A stretch of 64,000 nucleotides of DNA from Streptomyces globisporus (GTDB lineage Bacteria > Actinomycetota > Actinomycetes > Streptomycetales > Streptomycetaceae). Each line of letters begins with the position of its first letter. Positions within the stretch are counted from its first letter, which is position 1. The position numbers were made by a program, and so were the translations under genes. The notes below the pieces were generated by a model that saw only the letters and a list, made by a program, of their open reading frames with translations, did no database searches and had not been told where the DNA came from. Shown one piece after another: positions 3,591-26,215 of the stretch. The DNA is taken from the NCBI GenBank assembly GCA_014649555.1, contig BMTG01000001.1, positions 1,178,001 to 1,242,000 of the forward strand, written 5' to 3'.

Positions 3591-3605
3591 CTGACGGTAC
3601 GTCAG
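3591..3605. promoter_or_regulatory. Regulon palindrome 1 (CTGACGGTACGTCAG)
   Basis: A perfect 15-bp palindrome 22 bp upstream of the doxX start. The same CTGAC-N5-GTCAG layout recurs at 8652, 8676, 11910, 20687, 26111 and 26201, always in front of catabolic genes. It looks like a TetR- or GntR-type operator. Confidence 0.7.
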
Positions 3606-3772
3606 TTCACCGGACGGAGGTCCCCGGCGCAAGAGGTCCGCACCGTCCTCAGCGCCGCCATCCGCGGGCACGCGCGGTCACCGCACCGCACCGCACCGCT
3701 CGTGATCAATTCGCAATCGATTTCCCTCTTGACCGAGACCCATCAACAGAGCGGACGATTACGCTCCGAACC

Positions 3773-4969
3773 ATGCCCAACAGCCCGTCCTCCGCAGCCC
3801 GTCACGACGCCGTCGCCCTCACCGACCGTACGGAGGTCCGGCCCGTGTACGTCATCGGCGGCGGCCCCGGCGGCCTCGCCACCGCGGCCGCGCTGCGCGC
3901 CCGGGGCGTACGGGCGGTGGTCCTGGAGAAGTCGGACCGGGTCGGGGCGTCCTGGCGCGGCCACTACGACCGGCTGCACCTGCACACCACCCGCCGCTGG
4001 TCGGCGCTGCCGGGGCTGAAGATGCCGCGGAAGTTCGGGCGCTGGGTGGGGCGGGACGACGTGGTGCGGTATCTGGAGAAGTACACCGAGCACCATGAGC
4101 TGGAGGTGGTGACGGGCGTCGAGGTGACCCGGGTCGACCCGGCGCCCGACGGCTCCGGCGACTGGCAGCTCACCGCGACGGGCGGGCGGGTCCTGCGGGG
4201 CCGCGCGGTCGTCGTCGCGACCGGCTTCAACCACACCCCGCGCATACCGGACTGGCCCGGCCGCGACACGTACACGGGCGAACTGCTGCACGCGGCGGCG
4301 TACCGGAACCCGGCCCCGTACGCGGAGAAGGATGTCCTGGTCGTCGGCATCGGCAACACGGGCGCGGAGATCGCGGCGGACCTGGCCGAGGGCGGGGCGT
4401 CCGCCGTGCGCATCGCGGTCCGTACGGCCCCGCACATCGTCCGCCGCTCCACCGCCGGCTGGCCGGCCCAGGCCACCGGCATCCTGGTCCGCCGGCTGCC
4501 GGTACGGCTCGTCGACCGCGCCGGGGGCGTGATGGCCAGGATCGCCGTGCCCGACCTGACCGACCGGGGCCTCCCGCGCCCCGCCACCGGCCTCTACTCC
4601 CGGGTCCGCGAGGGGGCGATCCCGGTCCAGGACGTGGGGCTCATCGACGCGGTGAAGAGCGGCCGGGTGACCCCCGTGGCCACGGTCGCCTCCTTCGACC
4701 AGGACACGGTGGTCCTGGCCGACGGCACCCGGATCACCCCGGACGCGGTCATCGCCGCCACCGGCTACCACCGGGCCCTGGAGCCGCTGCTCGGCCACCT
4801 GGACGTCCTGGACGGGCGGGGCCGCCCGGTGACCCACGGCGGCCGCTCCCCGAAGGGCGCCCCCGGGCTCTACTTCACCGGCTTCACCAACCCGATCAGC
4901 GGGATGCTCCGCGAAATGGCCCTGGACGCGCAGAAGATCGCGAAGAGGGTGGCCCGGGCACCGCGTTGA
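3773..4969 (+). CDS. Flavin-dependent monooxygenase (FMO/Baeyer-Villiger-like)
   Basis: 398 residues. An FAD-binding Rossmann motif VIGGGPGGLATAAALRARG lies near residue 24, a second dinucleotide motif VVGIGNTGAEIAADLAEGG near residue 190, and a late ATGY motif near residue 330, as in FMO-like NAD(P)H-dependent oxygenases and reductases. It probably hydroxylates or oxidises a small hydrophobic substrate. The gene stands alone on the + strand, divergent from the DoxX operon, with no strong ribosome-binding site before ATG 3773. It could take part in the neighbouring catabolic pathway, but it has no regulon palindrome directly in front beyond the one at 3591. Confidence 0.82.
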   Translation: MPNSPSSAARHDAVALTDRTEVRPVYVIGGGPGGLATAAALRARGVRAVVLEKSDRVGASWRGHYDRLHLHTTRRWSALPGLKMPRKFGRWVGRDDVVRYLEKYTEHHELEVVTGVEVTRVDPAPDGSGDWQLTATGGRVLRGRAVVVATGFNHTPRIPDWPGRDTYTGELLHAAAYRNPAPYAEKDVLVVGIGNTGAEIAADLAEGGASAVRIAVRTAPHIVRRSTAGWPAQATGILVRRLPVRLVDRAGGVMARIAVPDLTDRGLPRPATGLYSRVREGAIPVQDVGLIDAVKSGRVTPVATVASFDQDTVVLADGTRITPDAVIAATGYHRALEPLLGHLDVLDGRGRPVTHGGRSPKGAPGLYFTGFTNPISGMLREMALDAQKIAKRVARAPR

Positions 4970-5043
4970 GGAGGGGGGCTGGGGCGGGCCGGACTGTCGG
5001 TGCCGGTGATTGCTGTCAGTGTCGGTGATTAGGGTCGGGCCCC

Positions 5044-5541
5044 ATGAGCGACATCCAAGAGCTGACCCTGACGGTCGACCTGCGCGACGGGCTGCCGGAG
5101 CGGCAACTGGCCGAGCTGCGCTGGCACCTGGGGCTCGGCCCGCAGCCCGGACACCTCACCGTCGTGACCGACTTCCCGTACGTGGTGGTCGACGACGACG
5201 GGGTCCCGCGGGTCGAGAACGAGCCGCGCCCGCTGCTGGCCGGCAGCGGACCGGCGTGGCGGACGACGGGCGCGCTCTGCTCGGCGCTGGTCGCCCGCGA
5301 CGGACTCCCCGGCGGCGGCTGGGCACTGACCTCCCGCACCGAGATCCACCCGGACGAGGCGGAGGAGGTCGGGGCGCTGCTCCGCTGGCTCGCCGAGCAC
5401 GTGCACGACACCCGGCGGCAGGAGGACGGCACGGTGCGGCTGGGGTACTACCGTGCATGCGAGGACCCGGTACCGAGCGCCCTCGAAGTCCGCGACGGGC
5501 GGGTCAACCTGACGGAAAGCCATCTTCCGAGGAGCCGCTGA
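5044..5541 (+). CDS. Hypothetical protein
   Basis: 165 residues, soluble and acidic, with no signal peptide, membrane segment or motif that I recognise. It begins MSDIQELTLTVDLRDGLPER and ends SHLPRSR. The stop overlaps the start of the VOC gene by one base (TGATG), so the two are read as a coupled pair. Codon use is normal for the window. A conserved role beside glyoxalase-fold proteins is possible but not shown. Confidence 0.75.
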   Translation: MSDIQELTLTVDLRDGLPERQLAELRWHLGLGPQPGHLTVVTDFPYVVVDDDGVPRVENEPRPLLAGSGPAWRTTGALCSALVARDGLPGGGWALTSRTEIHPDEAEEVGALLRWLAEHVHDTRRQEDGTVRLGYYRACEDPVPSALEVRDGRVNLTESHLPRSR

Positions 5542-5888
5542 TGACCGTTCGCCGCGTCGTGCCCAACCTCCGGACGGAGGCGGTCGAGGAGAACCGGGAC
5601 TTCTACGGCCTGCTCGGCTTCGAGGAGGTCATGAACCTCGGTTGGATCACAACCGTCGCCTCGCCGTCCGCTCCCCAGGAGCAGGTCAGCTTCATGACCC
5701 ACGACCTGACCGGCCCGGTCGTTCCCGACCTGAGCGTCGAGGTGGACGACGTGGACGCGGTGTACGCGGCCGTACGGGCCCGGGGCGCGGAGATCGTCCA
5801 TCCGCTCCAGGACGAGGAGTGGGGCGTACGGAGGTTCTTCGTCCGGGACCCCGACGGCCGGGTGGTCAATGTGCTGAGCCACCGCTGA
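5541..5888 (+). CDS. VOC (glyoxalase/bleomycin resistance fold) protein
   Basis: 115 residues with one beta-alpha-beta-beta-beta unit on each side: RRVVPNLRTEAVEENRDFYG at the start, and EEWGVRRFFVRDPDGRVVNV near the end, the usual VOC C-terminal strand. VOC proteins bind metals or sequester drugs, or act as isomerases or dioxygenases. The usual His metal ligand near the N-terminus is not evident (Pro-Asn is there instead), so a binding rather than enzymatic role is possible. It is translationally coupled to the preceding hypothetical gene. Confidence 0.82.
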   Translation: MTVRRVVPNLRTEAVEENRDFYGLLGFEEVMNLGWITTVASPSAPQEQVSFMTHDLTGPVVPDLSVEVDDVDAVYAAVRARGAEIVHPLQDEEWGVRRFFVRDPDGRVVNVLSHR

Positions 5889-5966
5889 GCCCCGGGCCCG
5901 GCCGGCGCCCGCCCCGCTCACGATCCCCCCTCCGGAACGGGGCCGCCTCTGCCTAGGCTGGGCGTC

Positions 5967-6926: not shown

Positions 6927-6998
6927 GAGGGCGGCGAACCGGCCGCTCCGGCGGGGTTCGCGGGCGTGCGGGGTACGCGGCCGGGCGGGCCGACAGCC

Positions 6999-7020
6999 GT
7001 CACGTCACGTCACGTCACGT
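6999..7020. repeat. Short tandem repeat (gtcac)n
   Basis: Four tandem copies of the 5-mer GTCAC run across the stop codon (7005-7007, - strand) of the neighbouring membrane gene. Slippage here would change the extreme C-terminus or shift the stop. It is a simple-sequence tract with no recognised function. Confidence 0.7.
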
Positions 7021-7496
7021 TGCGCCGCGCTACTCCGGCGCCGTTCGCGTCGGCGCTCCCTCCTCCGTACCCGCGCCCGCTCCCGTCGTTCCTCTCTCGC
7101 GCGGCGCTCGCGCTCGTGGCGCCTGGCCGCGCGGGCCTCATCGGTGGTGTACCGGGTCAGCCACGGGACGAGGGTGCCGAACAGCAGGAGGAGGAACGCC
7201 ACGGCCCAGTGCCCGGCGGACGTGCCCATGCCCAGGGTGACCGCCGCCCCCGGAACCGCTCCGGCCGGAAAGCTCAGGGTGAGGCGCCAGTCCCTTCGGT
7301 AGAACCCCGCCTTGGCCATGAACCCCAGCGGCCAGGGCGCGGCCATGATCGCGGCGAAGTACTTGCCGCCGCCGTCCGGGACGGCGCAGCCCCTGGCGTC
7401 CCACTCACACCCCAGGCTCACCAGCCCGGCCAGTCCCCAGCCGAACCACAGCACCAGCCCCGCCGTCAGAACGGCACCCACCCATCCGGAACGCAT
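7005..7496 (-). CDS. Small membrane protein with Arg-rich tail
   Basis: 163 residues. Hydrophobic segments lie at about residues 5-27, 48-62 and 80-115 (VTLGMGTSAGHWAVAFLLLL). The last 45 residues are a strongly basic run rich in RR and ER, likely cytoplasmic and able to touch nucleic acid or lipid head groups. The family is not recognised. ATG 7496 is chosen because it starts just before the first membrane segment; a GTG at 7556 would add 20 residues. The 3' end carries a short tandem repeat. Confidence 0.6.
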   Translation of the reverse strand: MRSGWVGAVLTAGLVLWFGWGLAGLVSLGCEWDARGCAVPDGGGKYFAAIMAAPWPLGFMAKAGFYRRDWRLTLSFPAGAVPGAAVTLGMGTSAGHWAVAFLLLLFGTLVPWLTRYTTDEARAARRHERERRAREERRERARVRRRERRRERRRSSAAQRDVT

Positions 7497-7563
7497 GTGC
7501 GAAGGGTACGGGCCAACGGTCTCCGACGCGTCCGAAGGGGAGATCGGTCCCGGCACCGGAGAC

Positions 7564-8651: not shown

Positions 8652-8690
8652 CTGACGCAGCGTCAGTTCAGTAACCTGACAGCGTGTCAG
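8652..8690. promoter_or_regulatory. Two regulon palindromes in tandem (8652-8666, 8676-8690)
   Basis: CTGACGCAGCGTCAG and CTGACAGCGTGTCAG lie 24 bp apart centre to centre, about two helix turns, in front of the acyl-CoA synthetase. Both keep the CTGAC-N5-GTCAG form. Paired sites on one face of the helix suggest cooperative binding and tight repression of the synthetase-hydratase operon. Confidence 0.72.
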
Positions 8691-8749: not shown

Positions 8750-10978
8750 ATGCTTGGATCGACTCACGGCACCCTCACCACCGACTTCCGTGCCCGGGTG
8801 GTGGCCTGCGGCGAGGAGCCGCACGCCGCCGTCGTCAGCCTGCCCACCGCCACACGGCAGGGCGGCCTCGACGTCAGCGGGCGTCCGCTGCACCTGGCCG
8901 TGCCCGACCTGGACCGCTTCTTCCGGCCCCGCTCGGTGGCCGTCGTCGGGGCCTCGGACGCCGAGGGCCGCCCCAACACCGGTATCACCCGGCAGCTGAT
9001 CGCCTGGGCCGAACGGGTCGGGGCCCGGCTGCACCCCGTGCACCCGACCCGGACCACCGTGTTCGGCCGGGAGTGCGTCGCCTCGGTCGCCGAGCTGCCC
9101 GAGCCGGTCGACCTCGCGGTCCTGCTGGTGGCGGACCCGCTCCCGGTGATCGAGGAGCTGGGCGAGGCCAAGGTGCCCTTCGCCGTGGCCTTCGCCTCCG
9201 GGTTCGCCGAGACCGGGGAGGCGGGCGCGGCCGCCCAGGCCCGGCTGGCGGCGGCCGTGGAACGGTCCGGGCTGCGGCTGCTCGGACCGAACACCAACCT
9301 GAACGCCTTCGAGCGGTTCCGGGACGACCTGGAGGGCCCCGCCATCGCCCTGATCACCCAGTCCGGCCACCAGGGCCGCCCGCTGCACGCCCTCCAGGAG
9401 CTGGGCATCCGGCTCTCGCACTGGGCCCCCACGGGCAACGAGGCCGATCTGGAGACCGCCGACTTCCTGGCGTACTTCGCCCAGCTACCCGAGGTCGGGG
9501 CGATCGCCTGCTACGTCGAGGGGCTCAAGGACGGCCGCTCCTTCCTGCTCGCCGCCGACCGGGCCGCCCGCGCGAAGGTCCCGGTCGTCGCCGTGAAGGT
9601 GGGCCGCACCGAGGCCGGGACCGAGGCCGCCGCCTCGCACACCGGGAAGCTGACCGGGGCGGACCAGGTGGTGGACGCGGCGATGCGGCAGTTCGGGGTG
9701 GTCCGGGTGGACGGCCTGGACGAACTCCAGGACACCGCAGCCCTGTTGGCCCGGGCCCGCCCGCCGAAGGCCGAGGGCGTGGCCGTCTGCTCCATCTCCG
9801 GCGGCACCGGCGCGCACTTCGCGGACCTGGCGACGGCGGCGGGGCTCACCCTGCCCGTTCTGTCGCCGGAGAAGCAGGCCGAACTGCACACCTGGATACC
9901 GGAGTACCTCAACGTCGCCAACCCGGTCGACAACGGCGGCCACCCGGTCGGCGACTGGCGCGGCCGGAAGATCATCGACGCGATCCTCGCCGACCCGTCG
10001 GTCGGGGTGCTGATCTGTCCGATCACCGGCCCGTTCCCCCCGATGAGCGACCGGCTCGCCCAGGACCTGGCGGACGCGGCGGAGGCCACCGACAAACTGG
10101 TCTGCGTCGTCTGGGGCTCCCCTGTCGGCACCGAGGACGCCTACCGCACGACCCTGCTGGGCTCCTCGCGCCTCGCCACCTTCCGTACGGCACGCAACTG
10201 CGTCACCGCCGTGAAGGCCTACTTGGACCACCACCGCTTCACCGACCGCTACCGCTCCCCCTTCGAGGACGCCCCGCGCACCCCGTCGCCGTCCTTCCGC
10301 AAGGCGCAGGGCCTGCTGCGGCCGGGCCAGCAGCTCAGCGAGCACGCGGCGAAGCAGCTCCTGCGGGCGTACGGGATCCGGGTGCCGCGCGAGCAGTTGG
10401 TGACCAGCGCGGCCGGTGCCGTACGGGCCGCCGGTCCGGTCGGCTACCCAGTGGTGATGAAGGCCTCCGGGCCCCGGCTGGCCCACAAGACGGAGCTGGG
10501 CCTGGTGAAGGTCGGCCTCACCTCGGCCAGCCAGGTCCGGGACGCCTACCGCGAGCTGACCGACATCGCCCGGTACGAATCGGTGGACCTGGACGGCATC
10601 CTGGTCTGCCAGATGATCGACCGGGGCGTCGAGATGATGGTCGGGGTCACCCACGACGCCCTGTTCGGCCCGACGGTCACGGTGGGGCTCGGCGGGGTCC
10701 TGGTGGAGGTGCTGCACGACGCGGCGGTCCGGGTCCCGCCGTTCGGTGAGCGGGACGCCCGGGACATGCTCGGCGAACTGCGCGGCCGGGCGCTGCTGGA
10801 GGGGGTGCGCGGCGGAGCCCCCGTCGATGTGGACGCTCTGGTGGAAGTGGTGCTGCGGGTCCAGCGCATGGCCCTGGAGCTGGGCGACGACCTGACGGAG
10901 CTGGACATCAACCCGCTGGTGGTGCTGGGCCGGGGCCAGGGCGCGGTGGCCCTGGACGCGCTGGCGGTGTGCCGGTGA
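8750..10978 (+). CDS. Fused ADP-forming acyl-CoA synthetase (acetate-CoA ligase family)
   Basis: 742 residues. The order is CoA-binding Rossmann domain (FFRPRSVAVVGASDAEGRPN near residue 45), succinyl-CoA-ligase-like domain with the SHTGKLTG phospho-histidine loop, and a C-terminal ATP-grasp domain (VMKASGPRLAHKTELGLVKV) ending LTELDINPLVV. That is the alpha-beta fusion layout of the ACS/Pat-like ADP-forming synthetases, which make acyl-CoA from an acid, CoA and ATP. ATG 8750 is chosen with AGGAGTGG upstream. The GTGA overlap couples it to the enoyl-CoA hydratase. The CoA-binding and ligase domains are complete; the substrate is unknown. Confidence 0.85.
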   Translation: MLGSTHGTLTTDFRARVVACGEEPHAAVVSLPTATRQGGLDVSGRPLHLAVPDLDRFFRPRSVAVVGASDAEGRPNTGITRQLIAWAERVGARLHPVHPTRTTVFGRECVASVAELPEPVDLAVLLVADPLPVIEELGEAKVPFAVAFASGFAETGEAGAAAQARLAAAVERSGLRLLGPNTNLNAFERFRDDLEGPAIALITQSGHQGRPLHALQELGIRLSHWAPTGNEADLETADFLAYFAQLPEVGAIACYVEGLKDGRSFLLAADRAARAKVPVVAVKVGRTEAGTEAAASHTGKLTGADQVVDAAMRQFGVVRVDGLDELQDTAALLARARPPKAEGVAVCSISGGTGAHFADLATAAGLTLPVLSPEKQAELHTWIPEYLNVANPVDNGGHPVGDWRGRKIIDAILADPSVGVLICPITGPFPPMSDRLAQDLADAAEATDKLVCVVWGSPVGTEDAYRTTLLGSSRLATFRTARNCVTAVKAYLDHHRFTDRYRSPFEDAPRTPSPSFRKAQGLLRPGQQLSEHAAKQLLRAYGIRVPREQLVTSAAGAVRAAGPVGYPVVMKASGPRLAHKTELGLVKVGLTSASQVRDAYRELTDIARYESVDLDGILVCQMIDRGVEMMVGVTHDALFGPTVTVGLGGVLVEVLHDAAVRVPPFGERDARDMLGELRGRALLEGVRGGAPVDVDALVEVVLRVQRMALELGDDLTELDINPLVVLGRGQGAVALDALAVCR

Positions 10979-11889
10979 GCGGGGAGGCGGGTGCCGGGCC
11001 GGACGAGCACGCGCGTACGGGCGCACCGGGCGCCGGACCGGAGGCGGCGGGTCCGGAGACGGCCGCCCCGGGTCCGGAGACGGCGGACCCAGCCCCGGCA
11101 GCGGCCACCGTCCTGCACACCCTCGACGGCGGCGTCTCGTGGATCACCCTCAACCGTCCCGAGGCCATGAACGCCGTGACCCGGGACCAGCGGGAGCGGG
11201 TCATCGCCCTGCTGGCCGAGGCCTCCGCCGATCCCGCCGTACGGGCCGTCGTGCTCACCGCCACCGGCCGGGGCTTCTGCGCGGGCGCCGATCTGCGGGG
11301 CACCCCGGGTCCGGCCCGCGAACGGGTGCCCGGGGACGTCGCCCGGACGATCCGGCTGGGTGCGCAGCGGCTGATCGCGGCCGTCCTGGACTGCGAGAAG
11401 CCGGTGATCGCCGCCGTGAACGGCACGGCCGCAGGGATCGGCGCGCATCTGGCGTTCGCCTGCGATCTGGTCCTGGCGGCCGACACGGCGACGTTCATCG
11501 AGGTCTTCGTACGCCGGGGGCTCGTCCCGGACGGCGGCGGCGCGTATCTGCTGCCCCGGCTGGTGGGCCCGCAGCGCGCCAAGGAGCTGATGTTCTTCGG
11601 GGACGCGCTGTCGGCGGCGGACGCGGAGCGGCTGGGCCTGGTCAACCGTACGGTCCCGGCGGCGGAGTTGGAGGCCCTGGCCAAGGAGTGGGCGGGCCGG
11701 CTGGCGGCGGGGCCCACCCGGGCCCTCGCCCTGACCAAGCAGCTGGTGAACGCCTCGCTGGACGGCGACCGGGGCACGGCGTTCGCGGCCGAGGCGGCGG
11801 CCCAGGAGATCAACATGACCACGCGGGACGCCAACGAGGGCGTGGCGTCCTTCGTCGAGCGCCGGCCGCCGAAGTACGAGGGCCGCTGA
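10975..11889 (+). CDS. Enoyl-CoA hydratase/isomerase family protein
   Basis: 304 residues. After an unusual Ala/Pro/Gly-rich N-terminal stretch of about 45 residues (repeated GPET units), the crotonase fold begins at VSWITLNRPEAMNAVTRDQR. The oxyanion loop GRGFCAGADLRG and the AAVNGTAAGIGAHLAFACD and RRGLVPDGGGAYLLPRL segments carry the usual catalytic Asp/Glu positions. It should hydrate or isomerise an enoyl-CoA in the regulon's pathway. The start overlaps the synthetase stop as GTGA, so translation is coupled; a GTG six bases upstream is an alternative. Confidence 0.88.
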   Translation: MSGEAGAGPDEHARTGAPGAGPEAAGPETAAPGPETADPAPAAATVLHTLDGGVSWITLNRPEAMNAVTRDQRERVIALLAEASADPAVRAVVLTATGRGFCAGADLRGTPGPARERVPGDVARTIRLGAQRLIAAVLDCEKPVIAAVNGTAAGIGAHLAFACDLVLAADTATFIEVFVRRGLVPDGGGAYLLPRLVGPQRAKELMFFGDALSAADAERLGLVNRTVPAAELEALAKEWAGRLAAGPTRALALTKQLVNASLDGDRGTAFAAEAAAQEINMTTRDANEGVASFVERRPPKYEGR

Positions 11890-11909: not shown

Positions 11910-11924
11910 CTGACGATCCGTCAG
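11910..11924. promoter_or_regulatory. Regulon palindrome 4 (CTGACGATCCGTCAG)
   Basis: A 15-bp CTGAC-N5-GTCAG site 17 bp before the flavin reductase ATG and 8 bp before its GGAGG. It is placed to block initiation or elongation of a short-leader transcript. It lies just after the hydratase stop, so the reductase can be controlled separately from the synthetase operon. Confidence 0.7.
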
Positions 11925-11941: not shown

Positions 11942-12556
11942 ATGGGACACGCAGGCATGGCCGCCACCGCCGTCCGGTACCTCAGGTCCGTCGGCGCCGC
12001 CACGACAGCCGCGCCGGGGACACCCCCGGAGGCGCTGCCCCGACCGGACCTGAGAGCGGTCCGGGACGACGAGCGGCTGCCGATCGCGCCGGCCGATTTC
12101 CGGCGCGTGCTGGGCCACTTCGCCAGCGGCGTCACCGTGGTCACCGCCCGCGACGCGGACGGGCCGACGGGCTTCGCCTGCCAGTCCTTCGCCTCGCTCT
12201 CGCTGGACCCGCCACTGGTGACCTTCATGGTCGCCCGTACGTCGACGACCTGGCCGCGCATCGCCCGCGCCGGGGTGTTCTGCGTGAACATCCTGGGAGC
12301 CGAGCAGGGCGCGCTGTGCCGGGGGTTCGCGGTGAGCGGAGCGGACAAGTTCGCGGGCGTGGCGTACGGGGAAGCCCCCGCGACCGGGTCACCGCTGCTG
12401 GACTCCGTGCCCGCCTGGATCGACTGCCGCGTCCACGCCGTCCACACCGGCGGCGACCACCTCATCGTGGTCGGCCGGGTGGAGGCGCTGGGCGCGGAGG
12501 AGCAGGGCGAGCCGCTGCTGTTCCACCGGGGGGCGTTCGGGCGGCTCAGCCGCTGA
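11942..12556 (+). CDS. Flavin reductase (FMN-binding split barrel)
   Basis: 204 residues. The flavin_reductase-like domain starts near residue 42 with FRRVLGHFASGVTVVTARDA and includes GFACQSFASLSLDPPLVTFM and the VNILGAEQGALCRGFAV helix, as in HpaC/NtaB-type NAD(P)H:flavin reductases that feed a partner monooxygenase. GGAGG with a 5-nt spacer marks ATG 11942; ATG 11930 would lie on the ribosome-binding site itself. No two-component monooxygenase is adjacent, so its partner may be the flavoprotein at 3773-4969 or elsewhere. Its 3' end overlaps the MFS gene tail to tail by 11 bp. Confidence 0.87.
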   Translation: MGHAGMAATAVRYLRSVGAATTAAPGTPPEALPRPDLRAVRDDERLPIAPADFRRVLGHFASGVTVVTARDADGPTGFACQSFASLSLDPPLVTFMVARTSTTWPRIARAGVFCVNILGAEQGALCRGFAVSGADKFAGVAYGEAPATGSPLLDSVPAWIDCRVHAVHTGGDHLIVVGRVEALGAEEQGEPLLFHRGAFGRLSR

Positions 12557-15961: not shown

Positions 15962-16615
15962 TCAGCCCTCGCACCCCACCAGGCCGTCCAGCTCTGCCTG
16001 GAACAGCAGGGCCGGGTCGAAGCCCATACCGGTGAAGTGGCCGGCCAGCTCCAGGGACAGCACCCCGTGCAGCCGGGTCCAGAACGCGAGGGCCCGCCGC
16101 AGCACCCCGGGCGGGGCCGGGTGGTCCCCGGCCCAGTCGCGGTGGTCCGCCAGGTGGGCGGCGAACGGCGAGGCGGGCGCGTCGGGTTCGAAGGCCGTCC
16201 AGGCGGTCAGCAGGTCGGCCATGATCTCCTGCGAGATGCCGGTGATCTCGTCGGGCGCGTGATAGCCGGGGACGGGGGTGCCGTAGATCAGGAAGTACCG
16301 GTGGGGGTCCGCCAGCGCCCAGTCGCGCAGGACGTGCGCGAGGGCGGCCGGGTCGGCGCCGGTGACGGCCGCCGCGTGGACGGCGTCGGCGAGGCTGCGG
16401 TACGCGTCCCGGATGAGCTCGGTGATCAGCTCGTCCCGGCCGGCGAAGTAGCGGTAGAGCGCGGGCCCGCTGACGCCCATCCGCTTGGCGATCGCGTTGA
16501 GGGAGAGCGCGGAGGCCCCGGCCGTGGCGATCTGCTCCCAGGCATGCTGCTTGATCTCGGCGCGGACCTGGGCGCGATAGCGCTCCCGGGGGGTCGCGGC
16601 GTCGGACTTCGCCAT
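15962..16615 (-). CDS. TetR/AcrR-family repressor
   Basis: 217 residues. An N-terminal HTH at about 25-70 (LSLNAIAKRMGVSGPALYRY, followed by FAGRDELITELIRDA) and an all-helical C-terminal domain with TRLHGVLSLELAGHF as in TetR_C_33 proteins. It is divergent from a secreted SRPBCC protein; the 20-bp imperfect palindrome at 16647-16666 between them is its likely operator. It could also govern other genes nearby. Whether it reads the CTGAC-N5-GTCAG sites is open: its own promoter has the half-sites CTGAC and GTTAG, but with a 10-bp gap. Confidence 0.88.
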   Translation of the reverse strand: MAKSDAATPRERYRAQVRAEIKQHAWEQIATAGASALSLNAIAKRMGVSGPALYRYFAGRDELITELIRDAYRSLADAVHAAAVTGADPAALAHVLRDWALADPHRYFLIYGTPVPGYHAPDEITGISQEIMADLLTAWTAFEPDAPASPFAAHLADHRDWAGDHPAPPGVLRRALAFWTRLHGVLSLELAGHFTGMGFDPALLFQAELDGLVGCEG

Positions 16616-17387: not shown

Positions 17388-18437
17388 TCAGAAGACCAGC
17401 ACCCCCCGGGCCACCCGGCCGTGGTGCGCGTCGTCGGCCGCCTTGGCGAAGTCCTCCACCGGGTACGTCTCCGTCACCAGTTCGTCCAGGAGCAGCCGGC
17501 CCTCCCGGTAGAGGTCCGCGTACAGGGCGATGTCGCGCTGCGGCCGCGAGGAACCGTAGCGGCAGCCCAGGATCGACTTGTCCAGGTACATCGACGAGAC
17601 CAGGAACGACGCCTCGGCACTCGCCGCCGGGACGCCCAGCAGGATCGCCTGGCCGTGGCGGTCCAGGAGGTCGATCGCCTGGCGGATCAGCTCGGTGCGG
17701 CCGACGCACTCGAAGGCGTGGTCGGCCCCGTCGGGCAGGACGTCGCGCACACCGTCGGCCGCGGTCAGGAAGTGCGTGGCGCCGAACTGCCGGGCCACCG
17801 CCTCCTTCGCCGGGTTGCTGTCCACGGCGACGACGGTCCGCGCACCGGCCAGCCGGGCCCCCTGGAGCACGTTGAGGCCGATACCGCCGGTGCCGATGAC
17901 CACGACGCTGTCGCCGAGGCCGACCTTCGCCCGGTTCAGCACGGCCCCGACGCCGGTCAGCACCCCGCAGCCGATCAGGGCGGCGGAGGTGAGGGGCAGG
18001 TCGGCCGGGATCCTCACGGCCTGGACGGCGCGCACCACCGTACGTTCCGCGAAGGCGGAGTTGGAGGCGAACTGGAACACCGGCTCCCCGCCCCGCGAGA
18101 ACGGCCGCCCGGGCCGTCCGATCGCCTTGCGGCACATGGTGGGCCTGCCCCGGTCGCACTGGGCGCAGGCCCCGCAGTTGGCGAGGGTGGACAGGGCGAC
18201 GTGGTCCCCGGGCCGTACGTGGACGACGCCGGGCCCGACCGCCTGCACCACACCCGCGCCCTCGTGGCCCAGCACGACGGGGGCCGGGAAGGGGATCGTG
18301 CCGTCGATCACCGACAGGTCGCTGTGGCAGAGCCCGGCGGCGGCGATCGCCACGAGCACCTCGCCGGGGCCCGGGTCGCGTATCTCCAGGTCGTCGACGA
18401 CCTCGGTCCGTGTGCCGTCGAAGACGACGCCTCTCAT
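17388..18437 (-). CDS. Zinc-dependent alcohol dehydrogenase
   Basis: 349 residues of class III-like MDR dehydrogenase. The catalytic zinc ligands are in GLCHSD and GHEGAG; the structural zinc lobe has pattern C-x2-C-x2-C-x7-C (CGACAQCDRGRPTMC); the NAD motif is VVVIGTGGIGLNVLQGA near residue 178. It probably oxidises an alcohol intermediate to an aldehyde or ketone. The start overlaps the acyl-CoA dehydrogenase stop by ATGA, so it is translationally coupled and last in its operon. Confidence 0.9.
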   Translation of the reverse strand: MRGVVFDGTRTEVVDDLEIRDPGPGEVLVAIAAAGLCHSDLSVIDGTIPFPAPVVLGHEGAGVVQAVGPGVVHVRPGDHVALSTLANCGACAQCDRGRPTMCRKAIGRPGRPFSRGGEPVFQFASNSAFAERTVVRAVQAVRIPADLPLTSAALIGCGVLTGVGAVLNRAKVGLGDSVVVIGTGGIGLNVLQGARLAGARTVVAVDSNPAKEAVARQFGATHFLTAADGVRDVLPDGADHAFECVGRTELIRQAIDLLDRHGQAILLGVPAASAEASFLVSSMYLDKSILGCRYGSSRPQRDIALYADLYREGRLLLDELVTETYPVEDFAKAADDAHHGRVARGVLVF

Positions 18438-19555
18438 CTCGGCTCCCTCGGTAGGCCGAGCACCCGCTCGGCGATGATGTTCCGCTGGATCTCGTCGGAG
18501 CCGCCGTAGATGGTGTCGGCCCGGCTGAAGAGGAACAGGTGCTGTGCGTCGTCGAGTTCGTACGGCCGGTCCGCCGTCCACGGCTCCGGTCCGACCACCC
18601 CCGCCTCGCCCGCGACCTCCACCGCCAGCTCCCCCAGCCGCTGGTGCCAGCCGCCCCACAGCAGCTTCGCCACACTGGGCGCGCCCGGGTCGCCGGTGGT
18701 GCCGAGGGTGCGCAGGGCGTGGCGGCGCATGGTGTCCAGCTCGGCCCACTGGCGGACGAGCCGGGCCCTGATGACCGGGTCATCGGCGGCCCCGCTCGCC
18801 ACGGCGGCGGCGACGACCCGGCCCAGCTCCTCGGCGAACCCGATCTGCTGGGCGAGGGTGGACACCCCGCGCTCCCGGGCGAGCAGGCCCATGGCGACCT
18901 GCCAGCCGTTGCCCTCCCCGCCGACGGTCTCGGTGGCGCGGGCCCCGTCGAAGAACACCTCGTTGAACTCGCTGGTCCCGGTCAGCTGTCGGATCGGCCG
19001 CACCTCGATCCGGCCCGGCTGGTCCATCTCCAGCAGCAGGAACGACAGCCCGTGGTGACGGGTGGAGCCGGGGTCGGTGCGGGCGAGGACGAAGCAGAAG
19101 TCGGCGTCCAGGGCGAGCGAGGTCCAGATCTTCTGCCCGGTCACGGCGTAGCCGCCGGTGCCGTCCGGGGTGGCGGTGGTCCGTATCCCGGCGAGGTCGG
19201 AGCCCGCGCCGGGTTCGCTGTACCCCTGGCACCAGAGCGTCTCGCCGCGGGCGACAGGGGGCAGATGGCGACGCTTCTGTTCCTCGGTGCCGTAGGTGAC
19301 GAGGGTCGGGGCGAGGAGGTTCTCCCCGATGTGGCCCATCCGGGCGGGGGCGGCGGAACGGGCGTACTCCTCGGCCCAGACGACCTGCTCGGGGAGGGTG
19401 GCGCGGCGGTTGCCGTACGTCTCGCCGTCGCCGGGCCAGCCGATGCCGATCCAGCCGGCCTTGCCCAACTCGCGTTCCCACGCGCGGGGGTGGGGGGTGG
19501 GGGTGTCGGTGAGATGGTCAGCCAGCCAGGCGCGCACCTCGGTACGGAAGTCCAT
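18434..19555 (-). CDS. Acyl-CoA dehydrogenase
   Basis: 373 residues beginning [20 protein letters not shown], with CAGGAGGA upstream of ATG 19555. Family landmarks are [40 protein letters not shown] and the C-terminal [19 protein letters not shown]. It introduces an alpha,beta double bond using FAD and passes electrons to ETF. It precedes the alcohol dehydrogenase in a coupled pair and lies downstream of the SDR gene across a large inverted repeat, so a single transcript from the palindrome at 20687 is possible. Confidence 0.9.
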
Positions 19556-19746: not shown

Positions 19747-20664
19747 TCACCGGTTCGGGCGGTCGCCCGACCTCGCCGCCGCCGCCATCTCCGCCACCCG
19801 CGCCAGCATCGGCATCGGATCCACCCCCACCGTCCCCGGCAGGAACTCCGCGATCCGTTCCGGCGTCCAGGGCGCCCCCTCCGCGTACCCCGCCCGCAAC
19901 TCCCTCGGCTGGGCCCAGACCGCGATCTTCGGGCCCGCGATCGTGTACACCTGGCCGGTGATCCCCTCCGCCCGCGCCCGCTCGCTCAGCAGGTAGACGA
20001 CCAGCGCCGCCACATCCTCCGGCTCCCCGATCTCCTTCAGCTCCATCGGGACCCCGGCCGACATCCGGGTCCGCGCGACGGGCGCGACCGCGTTCGCCGT
20101 GACCCCGTACCGGTGCAGGCCCAGCGCCGCGCTGCGGACCAGCGAGATGATCCCGCCCTTCGCCGCGCTGTAGTTGGCCTGCGAGACGCTGCCCTGGTGG
20201 TTGCCGCTGGTGAAGCCGATCAGCGTGCCCCCGCCCTCCTGCTTCCGCATCACCGCCGACGCGGCGCGGAAGACGGTGAAGGTGCCTTTCAGGTGGGTCG
20301 CGAGGACCGGGTCCCACTCCTCCTCGGACATGTTGAACAGCATCCGCTCGCGCAGGATCCCGGCCACGCAGACCACCCCGTCGAGCCGGCCGTACTCCGC
20401 CAGCGCCGTGTCCACGATCCGCTGCCCGCCCGACATCGTGGAGATGTCGTCCCCGACCGCGACCGCCGTGCCGCCCGCCGCCCCGATCTCCTTGACGACG
20501 GCCCTGGCGACCTCGCTGGTCGGCTCGGCGCCCTCGACGGAGACGCCGTAGTCGTTGACGACGACCCGCGCCCCCTCCGCCGCCGCGGCGAGCGCGACCG
20601 CCCGGCCGATGCCCCGGCCGGCCCCCGTCACGGCGACCACCCTGCCTGCCAAGAAGTTCCCCAT
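19747..20664 (-). CDS. Short-chain dehydrogenase (3-hydroxyacyl-CoA dehydrogenase-like)
   Basis: 305 residues. The cofactor motif AVTGAGRGIGRAVALAAAAE is near residue 11 and the active-site segment IGFTSGNHQGSVSQANYSAAK holds the Tyr-x3-Lys. The extra C-terminal region (about 260-305) is longer than in simple FabG-like SDRs and resembles the type found in steroid or multifunctional hydroxyacyl-CoA dehydrogenases. First gene of the - strand unit behind the palindrome at 20687, divergent from the cyclase-family gene. Confidence 0.88.
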   Translation of the reverse strand: MGNFLAGRVVAVTGAGRGIGRAVALAAAAEGARVVVNDYGVSVEGAEPTSEVARAVVKEIGAAGGTAVAVGDDISTMSGGQRIVDTALAEYGRLDGVVCVAGILRERMLFNMSEEEWDPVLATHLKGTFTVFRAASAVMRKQEGGGTLIGFTSGNHQGSVSQANYSAAKGGIISLVRSAALGLHRYGVTANAVAPVARTRMSAGVPMELKEIGEPEDVAALVVYLLSERARAEGITGQVYTIAGPKIAVWAQPRELRAGYAEGAPWTPERIAEFLPGTVGVDPMPMLARVAEMAAAARSGDRPNR

Positions 20665-20686: not shown

Positions 20687-20701
20687 CTGACGGACCGTTA
20701 G
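20687..20701. promoter_or_regulatory. Regulon palindrome 5 (CTGACGGACCGTTAG)
   Basis: A CTGAC-N5-GTTAG site, one change from the others, in the 84-bp divergent promoter of the SDR and cyclase genes. A single site could control both directions. TTT precedes it, as at 3591 and 26111. Confidence 0.68.
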
Positions 20702-20748
20702 ATTTTACGGGCAGTCAGATACTCCGGCACAAGACCCAGGAGGTCCCC

Positions 20749-21675
20749 ATGTCCCTGCCGGCCGAGTTCCACGAGATCGCCAAGCGCGTGAACAACTGGG
20801 GCCGCTGGGGAGAGGCCGACGAACTCGGAACCCTCAACCTGATCACCGACGGCGTCGTACGGGAGGCCGTCGCGACCGTCCGCACCGGCCACCGGATACC
20901 GCTCGCGCTGCCGCTCCGGCAGGACGGCGTGCAGAGCGGGCTCATCCCGGGCCGGATCAATCCGCTGCACACCATGGTCCAGATCAACCAGGAGATCTTC
21001 GGAGCCGGCACGGTCGCCACCAGCGACGACGCCGTCACGATGGGCCTCCAGGCGGCCACCCACTGGGACGCCCTGCCCCATGTCTCGCACAGCGGGAAGA
21101 TCTACAACGGCCGCCCGGCGGACACCATCACGGCGCACGCCGGAGCGCGGTTCTCCTCCATCGCCGCCGTGGAGCACCTCGTCTCGCGCGGCGTTCTGCT
21201 GGATGTGGCCCGCGCCCGGGGCGTGGACCGGCTGCCCGGTGATCACGCCGTCACCCCGGAGGACCTGGCGGCGGCGGAGGAGTTCGGGGGCGTACGCGTA
21301 CGGGCCGGGGACATCGTGCTCGTACGGACCGGGCAGATGCGCCTCGCGCTGGCCGGGGACCGGGACGCGTACGGCTATCCGTCACCCGGTCTCTCCGTGC
21401 GCACACCCGAATGGTTCCACGCCCGGGACGTCGCGGCCGTCGCCAACGACACCCTGACCTTCGAGATCTTCCCGCCGGAGATCGCGGACCTGTGGCTGCC
21501 CGTGCACGCCCTGCACCTGGTCGAGATGGGGCTGCTCCAGGGCCAGAACTGGAACCTGGAGGCGCTGTCCACTGCCTGTGCGGAGGAGCGCAGGTACGCC
21601 TTTCTGCTCACCGCCGCGCCGGAGCCGTTCGCCGGGGCCACCGGGTCGCCGGTCGCCCCGGTAGCCGTCCTGTAG
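20749..21675 (+). CDS. Cyclase-family (kynurenine formamidase-like) hydrolase
   Basis: 308 residues of the PF04199 cyclase family. The metal-binding core is seen as AATHWDALPHVSHSGKIYNG, with H-x-D and downstream His, close to the HxGTHxDxxxH signature of the family but with Ala-Ala in place of the usual glycine position. Members hydrolyse cyclic amides or lactones or formyl groups. A role in ring opening of a catabolic intermediate is an inference. AGG lies upstream of ATG 20749 and the palindrome at 20687 controls the promoter. Confidence 0.82.
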   Translation: MSLPAEFHEIAKRVNNWGRWGEADELGTLNLITDGVVREAVATVRTGHRIPLALPLRQDGVQSGLIPGRINPLHTMVQINQEIFGAGTVATSDDAVTMGLQAATHWDALPHVSHSGKIYNGRPADTITAHAGARFSSIAAVEHLVSRGVLLDVARARGVDRLPGDHAVTPEDLAAAEEFGGVRVRAGDIVLVRTGQMRLALAGDRDAYGYPSPGLSVRTPEWFHARDVAAVANDTLTFEIFPPEIADLWLPVHALHLVEMGLLQGQNWNLEALSTACAEERRYAFLLTAAPEPFAGATGSPVAPVAVL

Positions 21676-22611: not shown

Positions 22612-23673
22612 TCACCCTCCGCCCCCTGCTTCCGGGACCGGCCGCCCGTACGCCGCCGAACTGCGCGGAAGCCGCCCCGCCGCCCCCAGATCGGCGGCGA
22701 GCAGCTCCTCGGCCCGGGCCACGGTGAGCCAGGAGGCGGCCCGGAGCCAGGCCCGTTTCAGGTGGAGGTGAACATCTGCCTCCCAGGTGAAACCCATCCC
22801 GCCGTGGATCTGGAGGCAGTCACGGGCGTTGCGTACGGCCGCCTCGTCGGCGAGGAGTTTGGCCGCCGCGATCTCCGCCGGGTCGCCGGTCACGGCGGCC
22901 GCGTACACGGCGGCGCGGGCCGGTTCGGTGCGGGCAAGCATGTCGGCGCAGAGATGTTTGACCGCCTGGAACGATCCGATGGGCGATCCGAACTGATGGC
23001 GTTCCCCGGCGTGTTGGACGGCCGCCTCGGTGGTCCGTGCGGCGCTGCCGAGCTGCTCGGCGGCGGTGAGCAGCGCGGCCTCGTAGTGGAGTGCGCCGGA
23101 GTACGCCTGCGGGGCCCCCGTGGGCACCGCACGCCCCGCCAACCGGTGGAGCGGGGTGAGCGGGTCCACCGACCGTACGGGCCGGGCGGCGGCCACGAAG
23201 GCACCCAGCGCCTCCCCGGAGAGCACCTCAGCGCCCGACACGTCCCCGGAGAGCACATCCCCGGGGAGCCCCGGCGGCGCCTGCCCATCCACGACCAGCA
23301 CCGCGTCCGCCTCCGCCAGGTGTGCCGCCGGCAGGTCCGCCGCCACGGCCGTCACCACAGCCTCGCCCTCGGCGGCCCCCTTCACCAGGCCCGCCGCCAG
23401 GTGCGTGGCGACCAGCGGGCCCGGCAGCAGCGCCCGGCCCGCCTCCTCGAAGAGCAGCACCGCCTCGGGCAGCCCGAGGCCCACCCCGCCCGCCTCCTCC
23501 GGCAGCCGCAGCGCGAAGAACCCGGCCGCGCCCAGCTCCCGCCACAGCGACCGGTCCAGGGCCCCGTCCCGCTCCACCGCCGCCCGCAGCCGGCCCCGGT
23601 CGAACACCGCGCCGAGCAGGTCGCGCATACCGGACCGCAGGGCCCGCTGGTCGTCCGAGAGCTGGAAGTCCAC
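22612..23673 (-). CDS. Acyl-CoA dehydrogenase, short partner subunit
   Basis: 353 residues, somewhat shorter than usual. N-terminal DFQLSDDQRALRSGMRDLLG, mid-region EEAGGVGLGLPEAVLLFEEA and C-terminal ARDCLQIHGGMGFTWEADVH with LKRAW. The central region is degenerate (long Ala/Gly run at 110-150) compared with the 384-residue dehydrogenase directly upstream. Paired unequal ACADs form alpha2-beta2 enzymes for bulky side chains in actinobacteria (family knowledge). A GTG start with GAGG 5 nt upstream sits 7 bp after the neighbour's stop. Last gene of its operon. Confidence 0.85.
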   Translation of the reverse strand: MDFQLSDDQRALRSGMRDLLGAVFDRGRLRAAVERDGALDRSLWRELGAAGFFALRLPEEAGGVGLGLPEAVLLFEEAGRALLPGPLVATHLAAGLVKGAAEGEAVVTAVAADLPAAHLAEADAVLVVDGQAPPGLPGDVLSGDVSGAEVLSGEALGAFVAAARPVRSVDPLTPLHRLAGRAVPTGAPQAYSGALHYEAALLTAAEQLGSAARTTEAAVQHAGERHQFGSPIGSFQAVKHLCADMLARTEPARAAVYAAAVTGDPAEIAAAKLLADEAAVRNARDCLQIHGGMGFTWEADVHLHLKRAWLRAASWLTVARAEELLAADLGAAGRLPRSSAAYGRPVPEAGGGG

Positions 23674-23680
23674 GGTGGCC

Positions 23681-24835
23681 TCAGCGCCCCTTCGGCAGGC
23701 CGAGGATGCGCTCGGCGACGATGTTGCGCTGGATCTGCGAGGTGCCCGCGGCGATGGTGTACGAGAGGGAGGACAGCCGGTCCAGCACCCATTCCCGGTC
23801 GACGTCGAAGGCGTCCCCGCCCAGCACCTCCGCCGCCGCCTCGTACAGCTCCTGGCGGACCCCGGAGTAGCGCAGTTTGAAGACCGAGCCGCCGACGCCG
23901 GGGACCCCGCCCGTGCGCTCCGACTCGCTCACGTTCGCCTGCGTGAGCCGCCACAGGGCCCGGAACTCGGCGTTCAGCCGCCCGAGCCGCCGCCGCAGCA
24001 CCGGGTCGTCCCAGCGCCCGGTGCGCCGGGCCTCGTCGGCGAGCGCGTCCAGGGTGCGGCGGCAGGCGACGACCTCGCCGACGAAGGCGGTGCCGCGTTC
24101 GAAGGAGAGGGTGACCATGGTGACCCGCCAGCCGTCGTTCTCGGCCCCGACCCGGTTGCGTACCGGAACGCGGACCTCGTCGAGGAAGACCTCGGCGAAC
24201 TCCGTCGACCCGGCGAGCGTGCGCAGCGGCCGGACCGTGATGCCGGGGGCGTCCATCGGCATCGCGAGCCAGCTGATCCCGCGGTGCTTCGGCGCGGCCG
24301 GGTCGGTCCGCACGAGCAGTTCGCACCAGTCGGCGACCTCGGCGTGCGAGGTCCAGATCTTCTGCCCGGTGACCACGTAGTCGTCCCCGTCGCGCACCGC
24401 CCGCGTCCGCAGCGCGGCCAGGTCGGAGCCCGCGTCCGGCTCGCTGAACCCCTGGCACCAGATCTGGTCGCCGCGCAGCACCGGGGGCAGCCAGCGGGCC
24501 CGCTGTCCGGCCGTGCCCTCGGCGGCGATCGTCGGCCCGGCGTGCAGCAGGCCGACGAAGTTCGCCCCGACGTAGGGGGCCCCGGCCTTCTCGGTCTCCT
24601 CCAGGAAGATCAGGTGCTGGGTCGGGGTGGCCCCCTGCCCGCCCGCGTCGGCCGGCCAGTGCAGGCCCGCGTACCCGGCGTCGTACAGCATCCGCTGCCA
24701 GGCCGTGTCGTACGCCCGGCGCGCGGGCCAGTCGTCCGGCGAGGGCTTGGCGGGCAGGCCGGGGAGGGCGGCGGCCAGCCACTCCCGCAGCCGGCCCCGG
24801 AACTCCTCCTCGGCCTCCGTGTACGCGAGATCCAC
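23681..24835 (-). CDS. Acyl-CoA dehydrogenase, large subunit
   Basis: 384 residues. Landmarks are [40 protein letters not shown], and C-terminal AGTSQIQRNIVAERILGLPK. FAD-dependent desaturation of an acyl-CoA; with the smaller downstream protein it is likely a heteromeric enzyme. A GTG start (24835) follows the amidohydrolase TAG by 12 bp. Central gene of the amidohydrolase-ACAD-ACAD operon. Confidence 0.88.
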   Translation of the reverse strand: MDLAYTEAEEEFRGRLREWLAAALPGLPAKPSPDDWPARRAYDTAWQRMLYDAGYAGLHWPADAGGQGATPTQHLIFLEETEKAGAPYVGANFVGLLHAGPTIAAEGTAGQRARWLPPVLRGDQIWCQGFSEPDAGSDLAALRTRAVRDGDDYVVTGQKIWTSHAEVADWCELLVRTDPAAPKHRGISWLAMPMDAPGITVRPLRTLAGSTEFAEVFLDEVRVPVRNRVGAENDGWRVTMVTLSFERGTAFVGEVVACRRTLDALADEARRTGRWDDPVLRRRLGRLNAEFRALWRLTQANVSESERTGGVPGVGGSVFKLRYSGVRQELYEAAAEVLGGDAFDVDREWVLDRLSSLSYTIAAGTSQIQRNIVAERILGLPKGR

Positions 24836-24847
24836 CGCCGCCCCCGC

Positions 24848-26047
24848 CTACTTGTCCAGGTCCAGGCCGAGCATCCGGATCGCGTTTCCGCGCATCAGTT
24901 TGTAGACGGTCTCCTCGTCCAGTCCCTTGACGTGATCGAGGGCGACCTCCTTGGTGTGCGGGAAGGTCGAGTCCACGTGCGGGTAGTCGGTCTCGAAGGT
25001 GGCGTTGTCGCGGCCGACGACGTCGAGCGCGGAGATGCCGTGCTTGTCGCGGAAGAAGCAGCAGAACATCTGCCGGTAGTAGTACGTGGAGGGCGGTTCG
25101 GGGATCAGATCGCGCACCCCGCCCCAGGCCCGGTGCTCCTCCCACACGTCGTCGGCGCGCTCCAGGGCGTACGGGATCCACCCCATCTGCCCCTCGCTGT
25201 ACGCGAGTTTCAGCGTCGGGAACTTCACCAGCACCCCGCTGAAGAGGAAGTCCATCATCGAGGCCATCGCGTTGTTGAAGGAGAGCGAGGCCTGCACGGC
25301 GGGCGGGGCGTCGGGGGACGCGGCGGGCATCTGGGAGCTGGACCCGATGTGCATGTTGACGACGGTGCCGGTCTCCTGGCAGACGGCGAAGAACGGGTCC
25401 CAGTAGCCGGTGTGGATGGAGGGGAGCCCGAGATAGGTGGGAATCTCGGAGAAGGTGACCGCGCGGACGCCCCTGGCCGCGTTCCGCTTGATCTCCGCGA
25501 CCGCCAGGTCGATGTCCCAGAGCGGGATGATGCAGAGCGGGATCAGCCGGCCCCCGCTGTCGCCGCACCACTCCTCGACCATCCAGTCGTTGTAGGCGCG
25601 CACACAGGCGAGGGCGACCTCCTTGTCGTGCGCCTCGGCAAAGGTCTGCCCGCAGAAACGCGGGAAGGTGGGGAAGCAGAGGGAGGCCTCGACGTGGTTG
25701 AGGTCCATGTCCTTGAGACGCTCGGCCGGGTCCCAGCAGCCGGGGCGCATCTCGGCCCGGGTGATGCCCTCCAGGGTCATGTCGTCGCGGTCGAAGCCGA
25801 CGGCGGCGATGTTCCTTTTGTACGGGAACTTCAGGTCCTCGTAGATCCACCAGTCGGTGGGCGGCCCGTCCGGGTCCATCGTGATGACGTACTTCCCACC
25901 CGTGTACGCCAGCTCCCCGATGCCCGCAGTGAGCGGCTGGGGGCCGCGCTCGCGGTACTTGGCGGGGAGCCAGGTGGAGAAGAGGTGCGCGGGCTCGATC
26001 ACATGGTCGTCGACGCTGACGATCCGAGGCAGTTCCGTGTCCGTCAT
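24848..26047 (-). CDS. Amidohydrolase-family (ACMSD-like) metal hydrolase
   Basis: 399 residues of the amidohydrolase_2 family. Metal-binding positions are suggested by ISVDDHVIEP-type SVDDHVIEPAHLF near residue 10, a later VVNMHIGSSSQ and the terminal ATFETDYPHVDSTFPHTKEV with ETDYPH, as in members from catabolic clusters. Some members decarboxylate or hydrolyse ring-cleaved acids. First gene of the operon, 12 bp before the large ACAD, behind the palindrome at 26111. ATG 26047 is the natural start. Confidence 0.87.
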   Translation of the reverse strand: MTDTELPRIVSVDDHVIEPAHLFSTWLPAKYRERGPQPLTAGIGELAYTGGKYVITMDPDGPPTDWWIYEDLKFPYKRNIAAVGFDRDDMTLEGITRAEMRPGCWDPAERLKDMDLNHVEASLCFPTFPRFCGQTFAEAHDKEVALACVRAYNDWMVEEWCGDSGGRLIPLCIIPLWDIDLAVAEIKRNAARGVRAVTFSEIPTYLGLPSIHTGYWDPFFAVCQETGTVVNMHIGSSSQMPAASPDAPPAVQASLSFNNAMASMMDFLFSGVLVKFPTLKLAYSEGQMGWIPYALERADDVWEEHRAWGGVRDLIPEPPSTYYYRQMFCCFFRDKHGISALDVVGRDNATFETDYPHVDSTFPHTKEVALDHVKGLDEETVYKLMRGNAIRMLGLDLDK

Positions 26048-26110
26048 GGTGTGTGCCGTCCCCTCCGCGCACCCGGGAGCACCTCGCCGACTCCAGGCCC
26101 CAGACGCTTT

Positions 26111-26125
26111 CTGATGGTCCGTCAG
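26111..26125. promoter_or_regulatory. Regulon palindrome 6 (CTGATGGTCCGTCAG)
   Basis: A CTGAT-N5-GTCAG site 64 bp upstream of the amidohydrolase start (- strand). It lies in the 183-bp divergent region shared with the AMP-dependent ligase, which carries its own copy at 26201. Confidence 0.68.
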
Positions 26126-26200
26126 ATGTGATTGCGGAACTCAGGCTAGCCCCGCACCCCTGGACCGACAAGGCGCGGAGCCCTACGCTCTGCGCAATAT

Positions 26201-26215
26201 CTGACTGGCCGTCAG
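26201..26215. promoter_or_regulatory. Regulon palindrome 7 (CTGACTGGCCGTCAG)
   Basis: A CTGAC-N5-GTCAG copy ending 4 bp before GGAGGG of the ligase and 15 bp before its GTG. Its place right at the start of the gene fits direct occlusion by a repressor. Confidence 0.7.

Follow-up and report, generated by a model that had tools for sequence, protein, structure and literature searches.

The seven CTGAC-N5-GTCAG palindromes found in a 64,000-nucleotide stretch of Streptomyces globisporus DNA (contig BMTG01000001.1, positions 1,178,001 to 1,242,000; hereafter, the window) are predicted operators of an acyl-CoA catabolism regulon of approximately 24 promoters, and the regulator is probably a TetR protein encoded just outside the window, designated B. 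The regulon is real, conserved and extends well beyond the window, while TetR control of acyl-CoA catabolism is already known in kind. In the labels used below, G stands for genomes (G000 being this genome), L for fetched stretches, f for families, g for genera, and C for contigs.

A search of the window for the CTGAC-N5-GTCAG pattern with at most one mismatch returned eight matches against 2.69 ± 1.50 in 100 shuffled controls, none of which reached eight. The seven palindromes reported by the initial annotation are all present, five of them exact (3591, 8652, 8676, 11910, and 26201) and two with one mismatch (20687 and 26111); the eighth match, at 42939, falls within a called gene and was excluded from the set. 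All seven lie outside genes called with our own script, whose start positions are approximate, at distances of 22, 84, 60, 18, 23, 64, and 16 bp from the nearest called start in coordinate order (16–84 bp overall). The palindrome extends outward into conserved flanks with a consensus of approximately WTCTGACGNNNCGTCAGAW, the most strongly conserved flank position being the second base beyond the core on either side, which is A or T. The motif is a palindrome of 15–19 bp, to which a dimer would bind.

The genome (8.25 Mb in 58 contigs) contains 36 exact N5 sites, compared with three for the reversed pattern; spacings from N0 to N11 total 120 sites, with the 11 spacings other than N5 averaging 7.6 each. 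A genome-wide check had been proposed for the suggestion that the palindromes mark an acyl-CoA catabolic regulon of a dimeric repressor, and its outcome supports that suggestion: 26 of the 36 exact sites are intergenic in 452 kb of sequence that is 87.1% coding, a fraction computed on stretches chosen around the sites (binomial p = 5e-16). The retained set consists of 23 exact sites with a score of at least 19 and a start within 400 bp, together with five near-matches, i.e., 28 sites, which represent 24 promoter regions; of the excluded exact sites, ten lie in coding sequence and three are intergenic, namely those of L016 and L033, which are low-scoring, and that of L041, which is more than 400 bp from any start. 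The weight matrix used for scoring was trained on 25 sites of this genome, including the two one-mismatch sites of the window, and the scores of 20687 and 26111 are therefore circular; the sites L019:18287, L019:18391, and L029:7925 and all those of other genomes were not in the training set. A first-order Markov control produced one match at threshold 17 in 1.28 Mb. A weak second copy of the motif (score 17.0) starts at 20704, right beside the 20687 site.

According to Pfam scans, 21 of the 24 promoter regions adjoin genes for acyl-CoA enzymes or oxidoreductases and fit the proposed regulon, a count that comes from sorting by ourselves and has no background rate to set against it, oxidoreductases being frequent in Streptomyces. 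The classes represented are acyl-CoA dehydrogenases (ACADs), AMP-forming and ADP-forming-type acyl-CoA ligases, lipid-transfer-type thiolases, and ChsH2/DUF35 proteins; MaoC and enoyl-CoA hydratases, luciferase-like monooxygenases, short-chain and zinc dehydrogenases, and amidohydrolases; and aldehyde dehydrogenase, ferredoxin and flavin reductases, and 2-oxoacid:ferredoxin oxidoreductase. The remaining three regions (L032, L035, and L036) may be due to chance. The seven window sites probably belong to the regulon, as first supposed; however, it is far larger than the window, with 24 promoter regions across the genome.

Conservation was assessed in 80 named Streptomyces loci containing B, the best 80 of 581 relatives, with a score of at least 18 taken as a site. 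These counts cover the promoters of 3591 and 8652/8676, and the window sites 11910, 20687, 26111, and 26201 lie beyond these loci. A site precedes all 12 orthologues of the DoxX-like gene that have enough upstream DNA, all nine of the 8750 synthetase gene, all 18 each of a FadD3-type ligase gene and its divergent thiolase gene, which share one promoter, all 60 of the ACAD gene at L019:17042, and all 63 of the thiolase gene at L019:18410, which is divergent from that ACAD gene. Because two of the pairs are divergent, these six genes correspond to four promoters. The DUF35 gene, which is second in its operon, has a site before 9 of 22 orthologues. All of the 180 matches scoring above 18 in the 80 loci are intergenic; as a background, 212 of the 1074 called genes have a site of at least 18 within 300 bp, regulon genes included.

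The assignment of B as the regulator is based in part on its co-occurrence with the sites, counted with a refined motif in 246 genomes of the class (kinship was not corrected for, and the side without B was counted by eye). At least six sites are present in 33 of the 246 genomes, 32 of which carry B; among the 200 genomes that lack B, this number is reached in one only (G200, 68% complete). When f15 is left out, 27 of 28 genomes with at least six sites carry B (p = 2e-24). The same relation is seen within families: members of f16 have 8–16 sites with B and 0, 1, 1, 2, and 12 without it, the last being G200, and members of f20 have 4–11 sites with a close B, compared with 0–4 in the other 14 genomes. 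In G062, the refined motif occurs only three times in the whole genome, each time within 6 kb of B.

B is encoded at L019:15802-16449 (approximately G000:C1:1173801-1174448), and its end lies 3.6 kb to the left of the window. Its N-terminus matches the TetR_N helix–turn–helix (HTH) domain (26.9 bits against a cut-off of 24), and its C-terminus matches TetR_C_38 (PF19352) with 242.6 bits. Among the best 80 of 581 relatives, the B proteins of S. anulatus, S. californicus, and S. griseus are 99–100% identical to it, and the organism is placed in the S. anulatus/griseus group. The HTH stretch TSxATFYQYF is the same, apart from position x, in 15 B proteins from eight families that are 42–73% identical to B. 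The best of five structural models has a mean predicted local distance difference test value of 83.3 (52–76 for the others), obtained from a shallow alignment of 18 Streptomyces orthologues. Its closest fold is that of EthR (Foldseek E 8e-7, TM 0.77/0.86); the 50 best fold matches listed are TetR-type regulators, and structures of DesT with palmitoyl-CoA and of FadR are among the further matches.

The B gene lies one gene from a Ser/Thr kinase gene with PQQ repeats (afsK-like) and approximately 11 kb from a BTAD/NB-ARC/TPR regulator gene (afsR-like), a layout which we take to be that of afsK and afsR. A site at L019:1664-1678 lies between an amidohydrolase gene, which starts 22 bp away, and the afsR-like regulator gene, which starts 342 bp away. 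In S. coelicolor, the TetR gene SCO4421 is reported to be close to afsK, with spore-specific expression, lower expression in a whiA mutant, and a deletion without phenotype (PMC3878966). Since B is near an afsK-like gene as SCO4421 is near afsK, it is taken as the SCO4421 orthologue by synteny, i.e., by gene position. Judging by its gene number, SAV3818 of S. avermitilis may be the same orthologue. SAV3818 is described as a TetR protein that positively regulates avermectin production (PMC3742746).

Beyond the sites, their placement, their conservation and their co-occurrence with B, which are computed, we infer a mechanism of binding, repression, ligand release and autoregulation. A B dimer would place one HTH on each of the two half-sites, which lie ten base pairs apart on the same face of the helix, and binding over or near the core promoter would block transcription. 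A pathway acyl-CoA intermediate may then bind to the C-terminal domain, whereupon B would be released. B probably also exerts weak repression on its own gene, the start codon of which is overlapped by an imperfect copy of the motif. Such a copy overlaps the B start in all 80 named Streptomyces loci and is found at the B start in all 22 sampled genomes of the order, while a better copy (scores 17–21) is present there in seven of seven f14/f16 loci. Half-site spacing, promoter placement, the EthR-like predicted fold, and the probable self-regulation fit a ligand-released repressor.

Several observations weigh against B as the regulator or against this account of its own promoter. The copy at the B start scores 14–15 in Streptomyces and 13.4–16.0 over the order, with none of the 80 reaching 18; its right half has a second mismatch in genera g4 and g5, and it may be partly a conserved −10 box and start codon. 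B is present with just 1–6 refined sites in 8 of 22 members of the genus, so that B alone does not imply a large regulon, and the B-bearing stretches L162, L165, and L166 have no site above a score of 13. The sites in the f20 loci L151, L160, L161, L163, and L164 lie 200–400 bp upstream with scores of 13–21. Finally, five genomes of f15 contain 48–222 refined sites, and in G135, the sole genome of this family sampled, 33 of 40 sampled sites overlap coding sequence. The correlation in f15 may therefore have another cause, which is the reason for its removal from the second statistic above.

It is the same family that lends some substance to the idea that the palindromes are a structural or terminator-like element instead of operators. 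In G135 (L250–L269), 12 of the 40 sites overlap a stop codon, the TGA of which lies within CTGAC, and three of these stand where convergent genes both end; the site abundance in f15 looks like a separate gene-end or repeat phenomenon. However, the 28 retained sites stand 5–270 bp ahead of the closest start (they were retained on condition that a start lay within 400 bp), many of them in divergent promoters and none between convergent genes, and their spacing is fixed while the centre is variable, which a hairpin loop would not need. A structural role is thus highly improbable. A regulon that is real but bound by another factor, such as the TetR protein encoded at 15962, KstR, or another regulator, is somewhat less so, although still unlikely. 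The genome has 107 TetR_N matches, just three of which (B, KstR, and the 15962 TetR) were tested for co-occurrence; the 15962 TetR, which the initial annotation named as a candidate, sits inside the gene cluster, and KstR (C4:566717) lies between motif sites. However, five genomes of the genus with 14–21 refined sites (G013, G151, G223, G232, and G275) lack a close orthologue of the 15962 TetR and have only paralogues of 40–48% identity, which makes this protein an unlikely regulator, and B fits much better.

KstR was first favoured as the regulator since no match to it was found in G010, the genome with the lowest site count (9) of the genus sample. It was abandoned because its orthologues are preceded by a KstR box of their own and by no CTGAC site (11 loci in 10 genomes), and because G045 and G047 have no KstR match despite containing 92 and 95 sites, respectively. 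Mce3R-like regulation was also rejected, as the Mce3R operator is not palindromic (PMC11667970).

A KstR orthologue (TetR_C_20), separate from B, is nonetheless present in this genome. The KstR-type pattern has eight matches in the own-genome stretches, three coding and five intergenic; the latter comprise two before KstR, two at L023, and a weaker one at L027. The boxes L023:6930 and L023:12189 are 60 and 16 bp (start to start) from CTGAC sites, which suggests that a MaoC operon and a gene for two fused acyl-CoA dehydrogenases are doubly controlled. The fused gene, L023:9790-12147, encodes a 785-aa protein with two acyl-CoA dehydrogenase units in a single chain. As a separate observation, G044, G045, and G047 (g5) and G040 (g4) have 58–95 exact sites per genome, with B and without a close KstR.

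The nature of the pathway is hinted at by the highest-scoring site (34.6), which precedes the operon L025:6195-10905. Its gene order, i.e., ACAD, MaoC-DUF35 fusion, ACAD, MaoC, and thiolase, is the igr-type layout of steroid side-chain degradation; matches were obtained to Ltp2 of 6ok1 for the thiolase (E 5e-168), to ChsH2 for the fusion, and to Tcur3481 for one ACAD (E 8.5e-62). Judged by its gene content, L025 is a complete operon of the steroid-side-chain type. The window ACAD pair has the same kind of nearest solved structures as the L025 ACADs, although more distant. Both results support the resemblance to steroid side-chain degradation that had been pointed out in the window. In f14/f16, B follows a short-chain dehydrogenase gene (PRK07856 group). 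Opposite it are an enoyl-CoA hydratase gene (PRK07938), which we take to be EchA20, and ipdA (6co6, E 3e-95), together with two genes that occupy the places of ipdB and ipdC, the latter being FabK-like. A site scoring 22–29 is present in the shared divergent promoter in all six f14/f16 loci examined. In f20 (L151 and L160), the neighbours of B include an aldehyde dehydrogenase and a luciferase-like protein, and they are 57–59% identical to two proteins of this genome, the genes of which also carry sites.

From these neighbourhoods, it could be argued that B runs a strictly steroid-degrading regulon, like KstR2 in mycobacteria, with 3aα-H-4α(3′-propanoate)-7aβ-methylhexahydro-1,5-indanedione-CoA (HIP-CoA) or a related ring fragment as the ligand. 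The igr-like L025 operon, the position of B beside ipdA-type genes in f14/f16, a FadD3-family ligase that passes its cut-off (835 against 657), and the KstR boxes adjoining two CTGAC sites all favour such a regulon. However, the KshA_C profile (PF19298) has no match in genome G000, and relatives of IpdA, IpdB, and IpdC were absent from the fetched own-genome stretches, the whole genome not having been searched for them. The ipdB and ipdC labels are based on position and size, the FabK model match being below its cut-off (247 against 453), and the B sequence does not retrieve KstR2. Moreover, 55 of 57 Streptomyces genomes lacked a steroid pathway in a 2016 survey (PMC4810484). A strictly steroid regulon is therefore possible but rather doubtful, and for the wider acyl-CoA regulon under B, steroid-like or branched polycyclic acids are proposed with moderate confidence as the likely substrate class.

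The window sites and the genes beside them are listed in the table. The gene names of the initial annotation hold overall; however, the DoxX match is weak, and the 8750 gene appears to encode a synthetase of the ADP-forming (succinyl-CoA-ligase-like) type and is likely in one operon with the hydratase gene 10969. Elsewhere in the window, at 29176-31334, a gene with Sigma-70 region 2/4 matches (extracytoplasmic-function type) overlaps a gene with a zinc-finger (zf-HC2) match; the two are likely a sigma/anti-sigma pair.

Table. Predicted operators and adjoining genes in the window.
Feature	Position	Strand	Remark
ChsH2-type zinc-ribbon/OB (DUF35) protein	2686..3120	-	Pfam scan
150-aa protein, weak DoxX match	3117..3569	-	E 0.002, 19.1 bits against cut-off 23.6
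Palindrome CTGACGGTACGTCAG, operator-like	3591..3605	.	22 bp before DoxX-like gene (minus strand)
FMO-like flavin oxidoreductase, divergent	3845..4969	+	240 bp from 3591 site; membership uncertain
Palindrome, first of tandem pair	8652..8666	.	84 bp before gene 8750
Palindrome, second of tandem pair	8676..8690	.	60 bp before gene 8750
Acyl-CoA synthetase, ADP-forming type (Succ_CoA_lig + ATP-grasp_5)	8750..10978	+	Pfam scan
Enoyl-CoA hydratase/isomerase	10969..11889	+	Overlaps synthetase gene; Pfam scan
Palindrome	11910..11924	.	18 bp before gene 11942
Flavin reductase	11942..12556	+	Pfam scan
TetR (TetR_C_33)	15962..16615	-	Initial candidate; not likely the regulator
Zinc alcohol dehydrogenase	17388..18437	-	Same strand as genes 19747 and 18434
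Acyl-CoA dehydrogenase	18434..19555	-	Downstream of short-chain dehydrogenase gene, same strand
Short-chain dehydrogenase	19747..20664	-	20687 site 23 bp before start
Palindrome, one mismatch	20687..20701	.	Between two divergent genes, 23 bp and 48 bp before their starts
Putative cyclase (PF04199)	20749..21675	+	20687 site 48 bp before start
Acyl-CoA dehydrogenase partner	22612..23673	-	Nearest solved structure Tcur3481, E 1.9e-22
Acyl-CoA dehydrogenase	23681..24835	-	Nearest solved structures 4x28_A and Tcur3483
Amidohydrolase (PF04909)	24848..26047	-	Pfam scan
Palindrome, one mismatch	26111..26125	.	64 bp before amidohydrolase gene
Palindrome	26201..26215	.	16 bp before AMP ligase gene
AMP-forming acyl-CoA ligase	26231..27802	+	Profile match

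Known TetR systems resemble B in part. In mycobacteria and rhodococci, KstR represses steroid-type acyl-CoA genes over many operons through an operator of the TAGAAC-N2-GTTCTA type. B would share with it the TetR control of such genes, and two promoters here carry both boxes; however, the operators differ, and KstR has a TetR_C_20 domain whereas B has PF19352. The KstR2 regulon contains the C/D-ring genes fadD3, ipdAB, ipdC, and echA20, with an operator unrelated to the CTGAC motif. In f14/f16, B is surrounded by genes of this sort, and their promoter contains a site. However, none of the ring genes turned up in the portion of this genome that was fetched, and no KstR2 chain is among the 23 solved-structure matches of B (E ≤ 0.01), although the same search with KstR lists KstR2. 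EthR of Mycobacterium tuberculosis, the closest fold to the B model, is only 17–18% identical to B, and its operators are described as larger and more complex (PMC4482099). Neither the motif nor these targets are named among the titles and abstract openings listed from open-access literature, where a motif with unspecified bases cannot be searched for by its letters.

We tentatively propose, as a plausible reading somewhat short of an even chance, that the SCO4421-type protein is a third steroid-type TetR master regulator besides KstR and KstR2. It would hold C/D-ring genes in some families and, in Streptomyces, a side-chain operon together with about two dozen acyl-CoA promoters in an organism without KshA, and it would tie catabolism to development and antibiotic control. 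The last link is drawn because B is one gene from an afsK-like gene, SCO4421 is reported to be spore-expressed in S. coelicolor, and one site is near an afsR-like gene. For SCO4421, a conserved and developmentally expressed gene whose deletion has no visible phenotype, the regulon supplies a probable role along with a set of targets, and it predicts in which conditions a phenotype ought to appear. A side-chain operon under a shared regulator in Streptomyces without KshA points to an unknown natural substrate, and a defined 15-bp operator with a repressor to match would be of practical use as a tool in Streptomyces. The interest of the system thus lies in an orphan regulator and its substrate.

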